Assembly (NCBI RefSeq): GCF_001423615.1
Contig: NZ_LMOU01000001.1
Location: 2,060,453 to 2,124,452 of the forward strand
Length of the DNA: 64,000 nucleotides
Source of the DNA: Microbacterium sp. Leaf159
GTDB taxonomy: Bacteria > Actinomycetota > Actinomycetes > Actinomycetales > Microbacteriaceae
Direction: 5' to 3'
Every line of letters begins with the position of its first letter. Position 1 is the first letter of the stretch. This document shows, piece after piece, positions 3,290 through 51,489 of the stretch. The position numbers and the translations under genes are program-made. Below the pieces are notes generated by a model. The model was not told the origin of the DNA. It did not search any database and was given only the letters and a program-made list of their open reading frames with translations.

Positions 3290-3937
3290 ATGTCGAAGGA
3301 TGCTGTCGCCCACACGTCCGTCCGGCCTGCCACCCGCGAGAAGCGGGAGCAGATCCTCAAGGCAGCCGTCGAGATCTTCGGCAACAAGGGCTCGACCAAC
3401 GGCACTCTCGCCGATGTCGCCGAGCAGGTCGGCATCACCCACGCGGGCGTGCTGCACCACTTCGGCTCGAAGCAGAAGCTGCTGCTCGAGGTGCTCGCCT
3501 ACCGTGACCAGGCCGACGTGGCCGAGCTCGCCGAGAAGCACATCCCCGGTGGCCCCGAGCTCTTCCTGCACCTGGTGCGCACGGCGATCGCCAACGAGCG
3601 GCGCCCCGGCATCGTGCAGGCGTACACGGTCCTGTCCTCCGAATCCGTGACCGACAACCATCCCGGTCGCGAGTACTTCGAAGAGCGGTACACGACGCTG
3701 CGCCGCGAGGTGACCGACGCATTCCATCTGCTGTGCGCCCAGGAGGGCGTCACCGAGCCCGAGACGGTCGCGACCGCCGCGGCCGGAATCCTCGCCGTGA
3801 TGGACGGCCTGCAGCTGCAATGGCTGCTGCACCGCGACGTCTTCGACCTCGGCGAGGCGAGCGAGTTCGCGATCCGCGCGATCGTGAACGGCGTGCTGCA
3901 CCCCGGACCCACGCTGGAGTCCTACCGCCACGACTAG
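3290..3937 (+). CDS. TetR/AcrR family transcriptional regulator
   Basis: DNA-binding repressor, 215 residues, usual length. The N-terminal helix-turn-helix covers about residues 15-60: REKREQILKAAVEIFGNKG, then TLADVAEQVGITHAGVLHHFGSKQKLL. The C-terminal ligand domain has no assignable ligand. Start ATG is chosen because AGAGGA lies 6-7 nt upstream and the extra upstream residues do not resemble the family. It is divergent from the peptide-binding lipoprotein and probably controls it and itself. Oddity: its last four codons and stop (TAC CGC CAC GAC TAG) are the left copy of the 15-bp direct repeat flanking the downstream island, so the island joins exactly at the end of this gene without destroying it. 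Confidence 0.93.
   Translation: MSKDAVAHTSVRPATREKREQILKAAVEIFGNKGSTNGTLADVAEQVGITHAGVLHHFGSKQKLLLEVLAYRDQADVAELAEKHIPGGPELFLHLVRTAIANERRPGIVQAYTVLSSESVTDNHPGREYFEERYTTLRREVTDAFHLLCAQEGVTEPETVATAAAGILAVMDGLQLQWLLHRDVFDLGEASEFAIRAIVNGVLHPGPTLESYRHD
3923..3937 (+). repeat. Left copy of 15-bp direct repeat flanking the accessory island
   Basis: TACCGCCACGACTAG, the last codons and stop of the tetR gene. An identical copy lies at 8296-8310. The match is exactly 15 bp; the bases on either side differ. Consistent with an attachment site or long target duplication. Confidence 0.8.
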
Positions 3938-4066
3938 CGAGACGTCGAGTCTCGCACGATCTTGGATCCGAGAATCAACCCCAGCTCGTCACGACCGCAA
4001 CAGCCGCTGCTACAGCTGATCCACTCGAGGCTGACTACGAGATCCAAGGTCGGGCCGGTGGCAAGC

Positions 4067-4534
4067 CTACGCGTGCGCCAGAAGCCCGTCGTCAAGTGTC
4101 CAGATTTTGGCCCGAATCTTGGATCGTTCCTCGAACTGGAGCCGCTCCGTGATGATACAAAGGTCGCCAGCGCCAACTTTATTCATTGCGTGCTCGACGT
4201 ACGTCGACATCGTGTCGGCGCCGTCGAGCAGGGTGCGCAGGAAGTTTCTGTCCCACGCGACGTCATGAAGAACCCACGGCGCTTTGCGCTCGCAGATGAG
4301 ATTGAGGATAGCGTCGAGCTTCTCGGCAGTCTGCCGGCGCAACTGCCCATCAGCGAGTTGAGCTATGAAGTTGCCCGTCTCGATGACCGACGTGATCGGA
4401 AGAATGAATCGCTCCCGGCGATTGAGACGCTCCGTCATCTCTCGCTTCACCTCATCCGCATTCTGATCGCGACCTGGAACTGGCACTAAGTTGCAAAGCA
4501 CCGTGGTGTCAATGAATGAAACCTCAGTCATCAT
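4067..4534 (-). CDS. PIN-like domain protein, probable nuclease partner of the adjacent ATPase
   Basis: 155 residues with the outline of a PIN ribonuclease domain. The four expected acidic positions are visible: D9 in FIDTTVLCNL (strand 1), E52 in ITSVIETGNF, D124 in GAGDLCII, and D148/D149 near the C-terminus in IWTLDDGLLAHA. PIN enzymes cut RNA with metal ions; this role follows from the family, not from data here. The ATG (4534) overlaps the ATPase stop as ATGA, so it is made with the ATPase; a second in-frame ATG follows at once. No separate small antitoxin gene is present, so an ordinary VapBC pair is unlikely: the ATPase takes the place of the partner. Function as an anti-phage effector is inference. 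Confidence 0.7.
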   Translation of the reverse strand: MMTEVSFIDTTVLCNLVPVPGRDQNADEVKREMTERLNRRERFILPITSVIETGNFIAQLADGQLRRQTAEKLDAILNLICERKAPWVLHDVAWDRNFLRTLLDGADTMSTYVEHAMNKVGAGDLCIITERLQFEERSKIRAKIWTLDDGLLAHA

Positions 4535-5892
4535 CCGAGCCCCAGGAGTCGCTGAAATTCCGCGTAATCGGGTTCCTCGTGCGCGCCCGACGATAGCTTG
4601 CCGCTCGTCACGGCCGCGCCGAGTGAGCCTTCCGCAAGCGAAATCGCGTATCCGGGAAGATCAATAATCCGCTCAAGCTTGCTGTACCCGGAACCGGGGT
4701 GTCGATAGCAAACGATTATGTTTTCGTTAAGATGACCCTCCGCAGCATCAAGGAGAGCTGGACTATGCGACGTGATCAGCACACTGGTTCCGGTGGATCG
4801 GCTGCTCTCCCGGATCAGTTCGAGCACCCTGTGCGCTTGGGATGGGTGAAGACCGTTTTCGAGCTCTTCCAGCACTACGAGCACTGCACCCCGCGGCTCT
4901 TCGTCGTCTATCGATGACGACATCGCCGAATCGATGTCTAGACCGTTCTGCGGCGAGAGCAATGCCGTCGCGATCCCGATGAAACGGAGAAGACCATCAC
5001 TCATCTCTCGAGCCGGCGTTCGCTCGGATCGCTCAGTCGCCGCACCGCGAGACTCCTGTAGCGCCAACATAACGTCACCGAGTTCACTGCTCACGAACGA
5101 GATGCCTTGAACTCCGTCATCCGCGATCAGCCGCACAAGTTCCCCGATGCGGCGGAATGCATCGGGGTCAGTGGATTGCAAGTTCCTAAGTGCAGCCGAC
5201 AGGTTCTCGCCCGTTCGACGAAGCTCGACATCTCTGCCGGGAACGAAATCTCTCATCAAGTGTGGAATTGGATCGAAGTGAAAGACCCCTCTGAGAGCAT
5301 TCCTCACGGCTGCGACGGCCCTGAGGACAGACCTCTCCGCCCGGTTTGCCCCTGGGACAACCAGGGGAACCTGCGTCAACAGCAGCCTGCTGTCGCGAAA
5401 CCTCGACCACGGATTTGATCCACGTTTACCGTTGTGAATCTCGGCCTCGATCCCGGTACCGGGGGCGCCCGCTCGTCTCGTCTCGAAGATCGGACCATAC
5501 GAACGTGCACCGCTTGCGGCGGCTACTCCATACCCGTAAAGTTTCTCCGCGATTATGCGAATATCGGGCCGAACTTCGATCGTCACCTCGTACCGCAACG
5601 ACTCACCGGCGTAATCTACGCGGCAGCCAAGCGTGAAGCTATTCGTCCCGTGGGGCGCACAGCCCTCGGACCCACCGCGAACCGCTCCCATCTCTCTCCG
5701 GCGTCCGTCTAGCGCATCTATCAGGTCTTCGCCCTCCGCTAGACGGGCGAGCACCTCTAGCCCATCCAACGCGTTCGACTTACCTGAGCTGTTGCGCCCG
5801 ATCAGGAGCGTCAGGTCGTCAAGCGGAAGCGACTCTTCTCGGAAGGACTTGAAGGCAACCAGATTCAGCTCGGTCACGCGGGCGTCTGTCAT
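4531..5892 (-). CDS. AAA/ABC-type ATPase (AAA_21/AAA_15-like, OLD-type without nuclease domain)
   Basis: 453-residue RecF/OLD-like ATPase. Walker A GRNSSGKS is at residues 32-39 after the typical opening VTELNLVAFKSF; an ABC-signature-like SDGLLRFIGIATALL, Walker B LVVLEELENGLHP and switch motif ITSHSPALLDAA follow in order in the last third. No TOPRIM nuclease domain follows; the C-terminus ends soon after the ATPase core. Such ATPases act as sensors or gates for a separate effector, here the overlapping PIN-like gene. Start: the ATG at 5892 has no ribosome site but TACGAT ends 6 nt before it, the leaderless layout seen throughout this window; a longer upstream reading is less likely. Base composition is lower in GC than the flanking genes. 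Confidence 0.82.
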   Translation of the reverse strand: MTDARVTELNLVAFKSFREESLPLDDLTLLIGRNSSGKSNALDGLEVLARLAEGEDLIDALDGRRREMGAVRGGSEGCAPHGTNSFTLGCRVDYAGESLRYEVTIEVRPDIRIIAEKLYGYGVAAASGARSYGPIFETRRAGAPGTGIEAEIHNGKRGSNPWSRFRDSRLLLTQVPLVVPGANRAERSVLRAVAAVRNALRGVFHFDPIPHLMRDFVPGRDVELRRTGENLSAALRNLQSTDPDAFRRIGELVRLIADDGVQGISFVSSELGDVMLALQESRGAATERSERTPAREMSDGLLRFIGIATALLSPQNGLDIDSAMSSSIDDEEPRGAVLVVLEELENGLHPSQAHRVLELIRESSRSTGTSVLITSHSPALLDAAEGHLNENIIVCYRHPGSGYSKLERIIDLPGYAISLAEGSLGAAVTSGKLSSGAHEEPDYAEFQRLLGLG

Positions 5893-5977
5893 GGATAAAT
5901 CGTAGGCCCAACACGCCACCGAGTAGCTAGCACCCAGGACAACCAGCGTCAATCCGACCCTCAGGCCTGGAGGGTCA

Positions 5978-8269
5978 GTGCCCGCCCGGGACGGCGCCTG
6001 CGCAAGCGATATGTGGGAAAGTACGTTCGTGCGCAGTTACAAGAACCTGTCCGACCATGACTTCGAGCTCCTCGTCGCCGAACTACTTGGTGCGGACGAG
6101 GGTCGAGTCTACGAAGCTTTCGCCCGCGGCGCGGACGGAGGAGTGGACGTTCGATCACTTGGCCCTGACGGCTGTCTTGACGTGGTGCAGTGCAAGCACA
6201 TGGAAGGAAGTACCTTCCCGCAAATTAGGTCAAAGGCGAGGGTCGAGGCGACCAAGCTCCGTAAGCTCGATCCACAACCAAACCGCTATCGCTTCGTAAC
6301 GACACACTCGTTGACCCCCGGGAACAAGACTGAACTTCGGAAACTACTTTCACCCTGGATAGCGTCCGACGATGAAATCATTGGGGCGGAGGACCTCGAG
6401 CTGCTGCTCAATCGTCATGTGGCTGTGGAACGCAACCACGTAAAGCTCTGGATCAGCAACTTCGCGTTGCTCGATCGAGTCCTGCACTCAGCGACCTGGG
6501 TGCGTAGCGAACGGATGCTCGAAGAGATTGCCGAGACCCTACCGCGGTTCGTTGATACCGGCGCCTACGGAGTAGCAAGTGATCGCCTGCACAGCGAGAA
6601 GGTCCTAGTTCTATCGGGTCCACCCGGCATAGGCAAGACCACCATCGCCCGGATGCTTGTTGCCGACGCCGTGTCAAAGGGTTACGAGCCGATCGAGATC
6701 TCTGAGGATATTGAAGAGGCTCATTCAGTCCTCGAGGAAAGCCGACTTCAGGTCTTTATCTACGACGACTTCCTCGGAGCGACATTCCTCCATAATCGCC
6801 TGACGAAGAATGAGGACAAACGACTAGCTACCTTTATGCGTCGGTGCCGTCGCTCAAAGAACACATTGTTCATTTTGACTACCCGCGAGCATATTCTTCA
6901 ACAAGCTCGAAGCTGGTACGAAGAACTGGATCGTCTGGACCTGCCGTTGTCGAGACTCCTTATCGAGCTTCGCTCCTACTCGCGGCGGGAGCGCGGCCTG
7001 ATCCTTTACAATCACCTCTTCCACAACCAAGAGCTGACCAAGCCCCAGAAGAGATCGATGCTTCGGAACGCCGGATACCTTGAGGTGGTCGACCACCCCA
7101 ACTACAATCCGCGAATCATCGAATACACGACCGCCAACTACTCCGCGGCGCCGCAGGGAACCAGCACCCTTGATTTCGCTCTCTGGAACCTAGACCACCC
7201 CGAACGAATCTGGCAGCACGCCTTTACTCAACAGCTCGACGACGATTGTAGAGACTTGGTCCTCATCCTAAGCTCTATCCCGAGCGCGATCACCGTTTCC
7301 CGCCTACATCCAGTGTTCGACGCGGTCGTCGCCGAGCGCGGTAGGCGACCGCCCCAGGGAGCGCTCCGACAAGCGCTCCGGGTTCTCGATGATTCCTTCA
7401 CTCGAGCTAGCAATCGCTGGGCGCATGAACCGGAAATAGAGATCGCAAATCCGTCAGTTTCCGACTTCGCCGCATCTTGGTTGCGCGAGAACACCACCGA
7501 TGCTCGGCAGCTGCTGGACGGCGCCATTTACTTCGAACAACTTGAATGGTTAGAGGCACAGGTCGTGCGTGCATCGAAAACGGTGACGTTGCAAGAAGCT
7601 CTTGAGCGAGCCTTCATGCGCACCTTCGATGCCGGACCTCCGACTTGGTGGTTCGACCGCGCGCCCTCGGCTCCTCTTGGACGATACGGGGAGGCTCGTC
7701 TTCTGTTTATTAGGCGAGTTCGTCGCAGGGCGCCCTCGGTTGGCAGCGAACTGTTCAACGAGTGGTGGAAAGAGCAGATGAAGCTTGCGGTCGAGTTGTG
7801 GAGAACAACGGGCGCGCACGACCTCGCAAGCGCCCTGACACTCGCCAGAGCCTTACTCGAAGACGAGCAGTTGAGTTCGGATGAGCAATCAGCAATCACT
7901 GCAGCCGCGATGGCGGCCGATTCAACGTCAGACTGGTCCTTGGTAGTTAGCGTGATCGCCGATTCCCCGTCGCTCTTCGATGAAGACGCACGAGCCTTTT
8001 CAGCGCGCTTCCGCGAGTGGGCAGAAGACCGTCTTAGTAATTCAATCGAGGAGGTTTCGGACTTGGAAGAGCTCTACGAACTCGAGGCCGCCGCCGAGTC
8101 ATTGGGAGTGCCGATAACTTCGCACCTGTGGTCGAGCGCCTATGACGACATAAGCAACAGACCGAACGATGAGGTACCACAAGGTGAGAACTCAATCCGA
8201 CCCCGCATTGAAGTCGAAGATGCAACAGACGGCGAGCTACGCCGACTCTTTTCTCGACTGGGGGAGTAA
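5978..8269 (+). CDS. Mrr-type PD-(D/E)xK endonuclease fused to a STAND-like P-loop NTPase (nSTAND3-like)
   Basis: 763 residues in three parts. Residues about 25-110: Mrr-like nuclease with FELLVAELL, GADGGVDV (D57) and VQCKHM (Q71, K73), the D...QxK active-site pattern. Residues about 205-420: NTPase with Walker A SGPPGIGKTT (from residue 213) and Walker B VFIYDDFLG (about 258-266), then LFILTTREHILQQA as sensor. Residues about 430-763: helical region of unknown type, a plausible target-sensing part. STAND proteins of this kind are known immune sensors in bacteria; whether this one is, is inference. The GTG start is preferred because GGAGGG lies just upstream; an ATG at 6011 is the alternative. 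Divergent from the ATPase/PIN pair across 85 bp. Lower GC than the neighbours. Confidence 0.8.
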   Translation: MPARDGACASDMWESTFVRSYKNLSDHDFELLVAELLGADEGRVYEAFARGADGGVDVRSLGPDGCLDVVQCKHMEGSTFPQIRSKARVEATKLRKLDPQPNRYRFVTTHSLTPGNKTELRKLLSPWIASDDEIIGAEDLELLLNRHVAVERNHVKLWISNFALLDRVLHSATWVRSERMLEEIAETLPRFVDTGAYGVASDRLHSEKVLVLSGPPGIGKTTIARMLVADAVSKGYEPIEISEDIEEAHSVLEESRLQVFIYDDFLGATFLHNRLTKNEDKRLATFMRRCRRSKNTLFILTTREHILQQARSWYEELDRLDLPLSRLLIELRSYSRRERGLILYNHLFHNQELTKPQKRSMLRNAGYLEVVDHPNYNPRIIEYTTANYSAAPQGTSTLDFALWNLDHPERIWQHAFTQQLDDDCRDLVLILSSIPSAITVSRLHPVFDAVVAERGRRPPQGALRQALRVLDDSFTRASNRWAHEPEIEIANPSVSDFAASWLRENTTDARQLLDGAIYFEQLEWLEAQVVRASKTVTLQEALERAFMRTFDAGPPTWWFDRAPSAPLGRYGEARLLFIRRVRRRAPSVGSELFNEWWKEQMKLAVELWRTTGAHDLASALTLARALLEDEQLSSDEQSAITAAAMAADSTSDWSLVVSVIADSPSLFDEDARAFSARFREWAEDRLSNSIEEVSDLEELYELEAAAESLGVPITSHLWSSAYDDISNRPNDEVPQGENSIRPRIEVEDATDGELRRLFSRLGE

Positions 8270-8295
8270 CTGCCACCGCAAGAGGTGGTCAGCAG

Positions 8296-8310
8296 TACCG
8301 CCACGACTAG
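8296..8310 (+). repeat. Right copy of 15-bp direct repeat flanking the accessory island
   Basis: TACCGCCACGACTAG, identical to 3923-3937. Its final TAG is also the first half of the -10 hexamer TAGGCT (8308-8313) that ends 7 nt before the M20 amidohydrolase ATG. Confidence 0.8.
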
Positions 8311-50622: not shown

Positions 50623-51489
50623 CTATGACCGGTCGAGCACCTCGCGGAGCTTGGCGGCGAACGCCTCGGGCTGGCCGGCATAGCCGAATTCGCCGCCCAT
50701 GAAGCCGCCGTGGTGGCTGGGGAAGACCGTCGCCTGCTGACCGAGCTGCTCGGCCAGGGCGATCGCGGTGCGGCCGGTGTAGACCTTGAGCGACTCCTCC
50801 CCTACCGCCACGACGATCCTGGTGGGCGCAGCCTTCAGCGCCTCGATATCCGGAACGTAGAGAGGAACCGCCCAGGAGAGTTCCGACAGCAACGGGTCGT
50901 CTCGCTTGCCATCGTCATCGGTCGGCATCCCGAATGCCGCGGGGTCGGGCGCGGGCAGGTAGAGGAACTCCTCGGTGACTTCGCCCTCCCACGACGTCAT
51001 CGCGATGAACGCCGCCATTCCGGCACCCCAGCCCTTGTCCTGATATGCCTGGGTATAGGCCACTCGGGCTCGATGTACCGCTTCGGCATCCGGCAGCACG
51101 CTGTCGATCGGAGGCTCATGGGCGACGAGAGTCGCGACGTCGTGCGGGTGGGCCGTGACCAGAGCGAGTGCACTCACGGCTCCGCCGCTGCTCGCGAGCA
51201 TGTCGACGGGTCCGACGCCGAGCGCCTCGACGATCGCGTGGACGTCCTCGGCCTGGGTCTCCGGCTCGTTCGTCTGTCCGCCGTCCTTGCGCGTGCTCCG
51301 TCCCAACCCTCGCGGGTCGTAAGTCACGACGGTGCGATCATCGAACAGCGTCACCTGCGCCTGGAATCCGCTCGCATCCATCGGCTGGCCGATCATCATC
51401 AGCGGAGGACGACCATCCGCCGTCGGCAGCGGCCCGTGCACGTCGTAGACGAGGTCGACCTCGGGGAGCTCGCGCGTGTGCTGCGTCAT
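50623..51489 (-). CDS. Alpha/beta hydrolase
   Basis: 288 residues. PPLMMIGQPMDASGFQAQ (oxyanion region), TYDPRGLGRSTR, nucleophile elbow DMLASSGGAVSALAL (A-S-S-G-G, Ser at second S), then acid PTRIVVAVGEESL region and His in FPSHHGGFMGGEFG. The elbow is G-less at position one, unusual for the classic GxSxG. ATG with GGAGG 7 nt upstream. Substrate unknown; no operon partner. Confidence 0.85.
   Translation of the reverse strand: MTQHTRELPEVDLVYDVHGPLPTADGRPPLMMIGQPMDASGFQAQVTLFDDRTVVTYDPRGLGRSTRKDGGQTNEPETQAEDVHAIVEALGVGPVDMLASSGGAVSALALVTAHPHDVATLVAHEPPIDSVLPDAEAVHRARVAYTQAYQDKGWGAGMAAFIAMTSWEGEVTEEFLYLPAPDPAAFGMPTDDDGKRDDPLLSELSWAVPLYVPDIEALKAAPTRIVVAVGEESLKVYTGRTAIALAEQLGQQATVFPSHHGGFMGGEFGYAGQPEAFAAKLREVLDRS

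Follow-up and report, generated by a model that had tools for sequence, protein, structure and literature searches.

Composition of the locus

The window analysed here, a 64,000-nucleotide stretch of the Microbacterium sp. Leaf159 genome, contains an open frame of 763 codons on the forward strand (5978-8269, beginning with GTG 5978; residue numbers below follow this frame), and the matching frame of the opposite strand is broken by many stops. Clear homology to relatives sets in at about residue 18, where several aligned relatives begin, and a GGGAAAG lies seven bases upstream of GTG 6029. From these two features we infer that GTG 6029 is probably the start, with ATG 6011 as the alternative, giving a protein of 746 aa. 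The resulting Mrr-nSTAND3 gene (6029..8269, +) is the sole nSTAND3 match above cut-off in its genome; a scan for promoters and terminators returned nothing above shuffled sequences. A second Mrr protein of the same genome (L001 1201-2400; G000 contig C2, 506310-507509) has HTH and Mrr_cat matches in an open frame of 1446 aa, with an AAA_16 match just below cut-off, and is perhaps another nuclease-NTPase sensor.

The gene lies in a low-GC insert (3938..8295) between a TetR-family gene and an M20-peptidase gene, and GC content, taken in 1-kb windows, is 0.56-0.61 between 4001 and 8000 versus 0.63-0.74 in the rest. A 15-bp direct repeat, TACCGCCACGACTAG, bounds the insert: its left copy (3923..3937, +) ends on the TetR stop codon, its right copy spans 8296..8310 (+), and a third repeat-like place with two mismatches is found at 50803 in the window. 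With at most one mismatch the repeat occurs at 2 places in the genome and a backwards control pattern at 5, so that the repeat, taken alone, does not prove an insertion. The proof is an empty site: in a close relative (G001, locus L055), whose M20-peptidase protein is 97% identical, the two flanks join at a single repeat copy. Of the 29 M20 loci compared across the genus, 8 covered both flanks within the stretch analysed, and 0 of those 8 had an insert of similar size between them. We know of no earlier description of empty-site evidence for this 4.4-kb insert. No recombinase gene was recognised in 3938-8295, and a search of plasmids for DNA-level relatives of the insert gave no match. The 4.4-kb insert thus described carries two candidate defence systems.

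The second candidate system is PDC-M07AB, encoded on the reverse strand and divergent from the main gene. PDC-M07A (4531..5892, -) is an AAA_21/AAA_15 ATPase of 453 aa (PADLOC 4.5e-182; Pfam AAA_21 2.1e-26); PDC-M07B (4067..4534, -; 155 aa; PADLOC 1e-51) overlaps it by 4 bases and, at an E threshold of 0.01, matches nothing in Pfam. The idea that this pair and the Mrr-nSTAND3 gene form one larger system was not supported: tblastn with P0002 and P0003 (E 1e-5) gave hits at 0 of 23 relative loci, some of which have little flank. A look-alike pair beside one relative (L037) is ABC-transporter-like.

Domain architecture and structure model

For comparison we collected 26 sequences, the protein itself included, from genomes, plasmids, and phage and viral records. 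Set aside were a truncated sequence (L004), one split in two frames (L042), one with internal stops (L053), a near-duplicate (L045, of L039) and a TIR protein that has only the N-terminal domain in common (L044), leaving 21 to be counted.

The N-terminal part, residues 21-120 (6038..6337, +), is an Mrr-type (PD-(D/E)XK) nuclease domain conserved in all 21 proteins. Pfam Mrr_cat matches residues 22-120 at E 2.6e-5, above the Pfam cut-off; at a threshold of E 0.001 it finds 15 of the 19 proteins in alignment A1. The first-pass annotation had assigned an Mrr-type active site to D57 (6146-6148), Q71 (6188-6190) and K73 (6194-6196), correctly so; it had also named loss of catalytic residues in homologues as evidence against its reading, and on checking they proved to be kept in 21 of 21. 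Together, Mrr_cat and the D...QxK active site indicate an Mrr-family PD-(D/E)XK nuclease. A helical connector (residues 121-188; 6338..6541, +), mostly common to TIR/short-pAgo effector proteins, leads into the nSTAND3 NTPase at residues 191-348 (6548..7021, +; Pfam PF20720, E 1.9e-50), a domain found by Pfam in 19 of 19 A1 members. Its Walker A motif GPPGIGKT with K220 (6635-6637, +) and Walker B motif YDDFLG with D263-D264 (6764-6769, +) had been placed rightly, at about 213 and 258, and an LTTRE with R303 lies inside the same domain. GxPGxGK and DDFxG are invariant in the alignment of relatives, and PF20720 with Walker A and an acidic Walker B points to an nSTAND3/STAND NTPase. Residues invariant across the 21 proteins, this one included, are D57, Q71, K73, P216, K220, D263, D264, R303, H346, H373 and R379.

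An AlphaFold2 model built from seven sequences (mean pLDDT 76.9, pTM 0.56; it starts at residue 12, so that model numbers are 11 lower than protein numbers) begins with a nuclease of alpha/beta fold, from which a helical connector leads to an alpha/beta NTPase; a helical and winged part comes next, then a solenoid made up of helices only and, at the end, one last helix. When the full model was compared with the PDB by Foldseek, the top eight matches were Avs4 bound to a portal (E 5e-9), human SAMD9 (2.9e-7), two Avs5 filaments (2.4e-6 and 4.2e-6) and four plant NLR chains, from wheat NLRs (1.2e-5 and 1.3e-5) and RPP1 (2.5e-5 and 8.7e-5). VIA-align gave Z 13.0-14.7 for NLRs, the highest being the TIR-NLR WRR4A (14.7 over 286 residues), 12.8 over 289 residues (model 163-517) for CED-4 and 11.6 over 289 residues for EfAvs5. 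Archaeal ATPases reached Z 13.6 and 12.8 and proteasome ATPases up to 12.3, a range overlapping that of the NLRs, so Z-scores alone do not single NLRs out; in the model, the NLR likeness is singled out by how far the alignments extend, to model residue ~517 and through the winged-helix part, together with the Foldseek order. Global TM-scores against Avs4 and Avs5 are low (TMq 0.26-0.30, Foldseek), so the match is one of module order and NTPase fold and not of overall shape.

The structural alignments to NLRs, CED-4 and Avs5 end at about model 508-522, or protein 519-533. On that extent we assign residues 351 to ~515 (7028..7522, +), helical and winged-helix-like, to the C-terminal half of the STAND module, and residues ~516-747 to a variable sensor. 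The NLR/CED-4-like helical and winged-helix half following the NTPase is a feature of the predicted model only. The first-pass annotation had likened the order nuclease-NTPase-sensor to that of Avs and nSTAND immune sensors and had proposed structure prediction with comparison to Avs and nSTAND3 proteins; the comparison, with Avs4, SAMD9, Avs5 and NLRs at the top and Avs4 and Avs5 among the best, supports that view, as does membership in the PADLOC family PDC-S73 described below.

The variable sensor and the conserved tail

The putative sensor is a variable all-helical solenoid at residues 516-747 (7523..8218, +), delimited by pairwise identity and the model. Among the 21 proteins, mean pairwise identity falls from 0.40 in the nuclease and 0.38 in the NTPase to 0.26 in residues 351-515 and 0.13-0.15 in the sensor, then comes back up to 0.24 in residues 748-761; the drop is as would be expected of a ligand-facing arm. 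A sensor of 330 residues had been claimed. The length did not hold, since the region covers about 230 residues followed by a tail at 748-763, and its lack of a recognised family did: no housekeeping family, which would have spoken against a sensor, was found there among the Pfam, NCBIfam and PDB-sequence matches listed. The one PDB-sequence match listed for the region is a designed helical-repeat protein (E 0.0045).

Modelled on its own, the sensor is again a helical solenoid. The best Foldseek match of this sensor-only model had E 0.14, so that none passed a threshold of 0.001, and VIA Z-scores of at most 9.1 among helical repeats may reflect just a common arrangement of helices. A specific sensor fold was not found, the fold searches having returned generic helical repeats only; Avs sensors are absent among the matches listed, which excludes nothing. 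No DNA-binding domain was recognised in the sensor among the Pfam matches listed, in the sensor model or in the fold searches. By analogy with Avs proteins, the sensor may bind a phage component.

These results bear on whether the protein is instead a type IV-like restriction enzyme, in which Mrr would cut modified or foreign DNA, the C-terminal half would read DNA directly and the NTPase would be a motor or a switch for proof-reading, with no protein ligand of the NLR type involved. The nuclease is indeed of the Mrr family, and most of the plasmid relatives taken are annotated 'restriction endonuclease' (L041 as AAA family ATPase), but that label derives from their N-terminal domain alone. 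In 19 of 19 aligned members the NTPase is nSTAND3; McrB is absent among the best 50 Foldseek matches and matches in sequence at the P-loop only (E 2.2e-4), and the model shows the sensor as a helical solenoid, with no DNA-binding domain recognised in it. We regard a restriction enzyme of this kind as unlikely, and an NLR-like sensor as the better reading of the same domains.

Beyond the sensor, the protein ends in a conserved amphipathic tail (residues 748-763; 8219..8266, +; ELRRLFSRLGE here), recognised by motif counts. All of the 21 proteins except L006, 20 in total, carry the pattern [LIVM]xx[LIMV]F within their last 25 residues; with the last 60 residues shuffled in 2000 trials, the mean was 0.54 and the maximum 5. 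Of the 21, 17 carry a longer pattern with a further hydrophobic residue, for which shuffling gave a mean of 0.07 and a maximum of 2. Because the patterns were defined after viewing the alignment and the sequences are related, these contrasts are descriptive. Between this protein and its four closest relatives, identity is 0.14-0.38 in the tail and 0.22-0.39 in the sensor; tail identity is no higher, and what is conserved is therefore the hydrophobic pattern and not the individual residues. We know of no earlier description of this tail pattern. A beta-clamp-binding tail was considered and dropped: beta-clamp-binding motifs follow the pattern QLxLF, and the spacing here, LxxLF, fits an amphipathic helix.

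In the full model the two blocks at the tail end have pLDDT 81 and 74 after a preceding block at 46, and in the sensor-only model they have 45 and 43. Confidence in the full model and not in the sensor-only model weakly suggests that the tail docks on a conserved part of its own protein, although the poorer alignment of the sensor-only job could also produce the contrast. As a tentative proposal, possible rather than probable in our judgement, PDC-S73 proteins would be compact bacterial nuclease NLRs with a built-in C-terminal latch, a short amphipathic helix that follows a poorly ordered linker and docks on a constant surface. Such a surface would be called for by a tail that is conserved while the sensor before it varies. 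The latch would dock on the protein's own NTPase or nuclease, or on one host factor, and would either hold the protein off or build the active oligomer.

Distribution and genomic context of the family

The PADLOC model PDC-S73 (PDLC05079) matches residues 21-513 of the protein at 8.3e-127. With a threshold of E 1e-5 it matches all 19 A1 members, and it also recognises two relatives on viral contigs (L086 and L087). By these profile matches, the protein belongs to an already catalogued family of defence candidates. Its distribution is patchy, with members in 4 of 99 genomes of the genus. We found 4 strong matches among 398 genomes in the family, and members in 1 of 396 genomes in the order and 3 of 396 in the phylum, in scans limited to two scored candidates per genome, which may have overlooked members; all of these counts include the genome studied here. 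The family-level search gave 23 matches, of which 19 were left out of the count of relatives: these are short matches around the P-loop with E-values no better than 2.2e-5. Relatives were taken from 10 of 47 matching plasmid records and 1 of 2 phage records. A profile scan of viral contigs gave at least seven loci, two of them the family members L086 and L087 and five others matching only 21-89 residues around the P-loop; four single-protein scans of the same contigs added no further relatives.

Two internal stop codons in a phylum-level copy (L034/L053, genome G849) and the split in two frames of a plasmid copy (L042) indicate that loss of function occurs in the family. Together with the rarity of the gene in the genus, these broken copies are what one would expect if the gene were a decaying passenger of its insert and no active defence gene. 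The copy studied here is intact and keeps the conserved residues, and we consider such decay very unlikely.

Large neighbouring proteins, 20 in all, picked by hand and without a background control, were scanned at nine relative loci, and 4 of the 9 loci had clear defence neighbours: type I R-M with PDC-S18 (L005), PDC-S06 (L038), PDC-S46 with Cas13-ApeA/PDC-S58 (L039) and GajA of Gabija (L040). Defence neighbours at L047 were weak, and at L037, L046, L051 and L052 no specific one was found among the large proteins scanned. Of the viral-contig relatives, L086 is near a phage-type integrase gene and L087 is flanked by a portal gene on one side and a P2-type gpA gene on the other, a place that corresponds to the old/tin hotspot of P2-like phages as described in two papers (PMC9122126; PMC9519451).

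This context also speaks to a selfish stabiliser or plasmid-competition module, which would sense incoming plasmids or conjugation rather than phage and respond by abortive DNA cleavage. Conjugative or mobilizable plasmids account for 33 of the 47 matching plasmid records, a count that includes weak and N-terminal-only matches, and two relatives are next to or near repABC. Yet relatives also occupy the P2-like prophage defence spot and a chromosomal defence island, and the closest structural matches include antiphage proteins; a role confined to plasmid competition seems to us improbable, and phage sensing remains our preferred reading.

Two further settings were observed. Distant relatives in two species of the window's genus (L049 6867-9077 and L050 7115-9316) lie directly downstream of a ribonucleotide reductase small-subunit gene, called by a Pfam match for L049 and by eye for L050. 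These relatives have a GC content of 0.56 versus 0.66-0.67 for their locus, and their position may represent a second insertion site or old inheritance. On a Prosthecochloris plasmid (L035 941-8295), the relative adjoins a diversity-generating retroelement (Avd and reverse transcriptase) and formylglycine-generating-enzyme-family genes.

A candidate NLR-like sensor and its known counterparts

We consider it probable that the gene encodes a one-gene NLR-like antiphage sensor. Computation shows the architecture with its conserved catalytic and nucleotide-binding residues, a fold like that of NLRs and Avs proteins, a mobile context that is often rich in defence genes, a variable sensor and a conserved tail. 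By analogy with Avs4, Avs5 and NLRs, the protein would bind a ligand, assemble, cleave DNA and act against phage. The resting protein would be an autoinhibited monomer or small oligomer until a phage protein binds the helical C-terminal solenoid, whereupon the nSTAND3 NTPase would bind ATP and self-assemble. Mrr domains clustered in this way could cut double-stranded DNA of the phage, the host or both, and the cutting would end the infection or kill the cell. If this is right, the protein opens no new class of system and is an actinobacterial, half-size addition to the bacterial NLR-like sensors, with an Avs5-type NTPase joined to an Mrr nuclease. Ligand mapping would be easier on so short a sensor than in the 1500-residue Avs4, and the conserved tail would offer a small element for studying how a sensor is locked or assembled.

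Avs4 (8dgf, bound to phage portal) shares the order nuclease-NTPase-helical sensor, and its effector is likewise Mrr-type. It is the best Foldseek match of the full model, at an identity of only 11%, and its chain (8dgf_B) has 1534 residues against a 763 aa frame and a protein of ~750 residues here, which departs from the length of Avs4. Avs5 (9nc9, 9jap; SIR2-nSTAND3-repeats) has the nSTAND3 Pfam family in common with our protein and a similar length in its solved chains (769 and 833 residues), with 12-13% identity, but its effector is SIR2 where ours is an Mrr nuclease. No SIR2 family is among the best 25 of 32 Pfam matches, all of which except Mrr_cat fall on the NTPase, and the 11 PADLOC matches that pass HMMER's filters at an E of 1 or less include no Avs model. 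By the features compared (SIR2, length and a PADLOC Avs match), the protein counts as neither Avs4 nor Avs5. PMC12931631 describes Avs5 as an nSTAND3 protein whose C-terminal repeats are poorly conserved, like the sensor here, and whose C-terminus is required for activation.

The PDC-S73 profile itself is matched over 1-751 of 752 positions by the prophage relative L087, whereas the C-terminal 250 residues of our protein lie outside its match (residues 21-513 only). No paper naming PDC-S73 was found in open-licence PMC, and PMC8195603, in the part available, defines nSTAND1 and nSTAND2, not nSTAND3. The Mrr-STAND-repeat plan, however, is already published: PMC9122126 reports that in proteins of a P4-like satellite hotspot, which join a STAND NTPase to C-terminal repeats, SIR2, Mrr_cat or BpuSI_N can stand in for the N-terminal TIR effector. 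Those Mrr_cat-STAND-repeat proteins are alike in plan to ours, a comparison by description only.

A different kinship links the N-terminus to short-pAgo effectors. The N-terminal 160-180 residues are homologous to those of the PADLOC Aga_(REase-)TIR-PNTD proteins (2.6e-32), systems that have a TIR and a pAgo partner where our protein has an NTPase and solenoid. In Sinorhizobium (L044 4989-8464), the same N-terminal domain, without Mrr_cat by Pfam, is joined to a TIR, and pAgo models match the gene that comes next. To our knowledge this homology has not been described as that of a common effector module, and it suggests that the N-terminal domain serves as one, deployed in both NLR-like and short-Argonaute systems.
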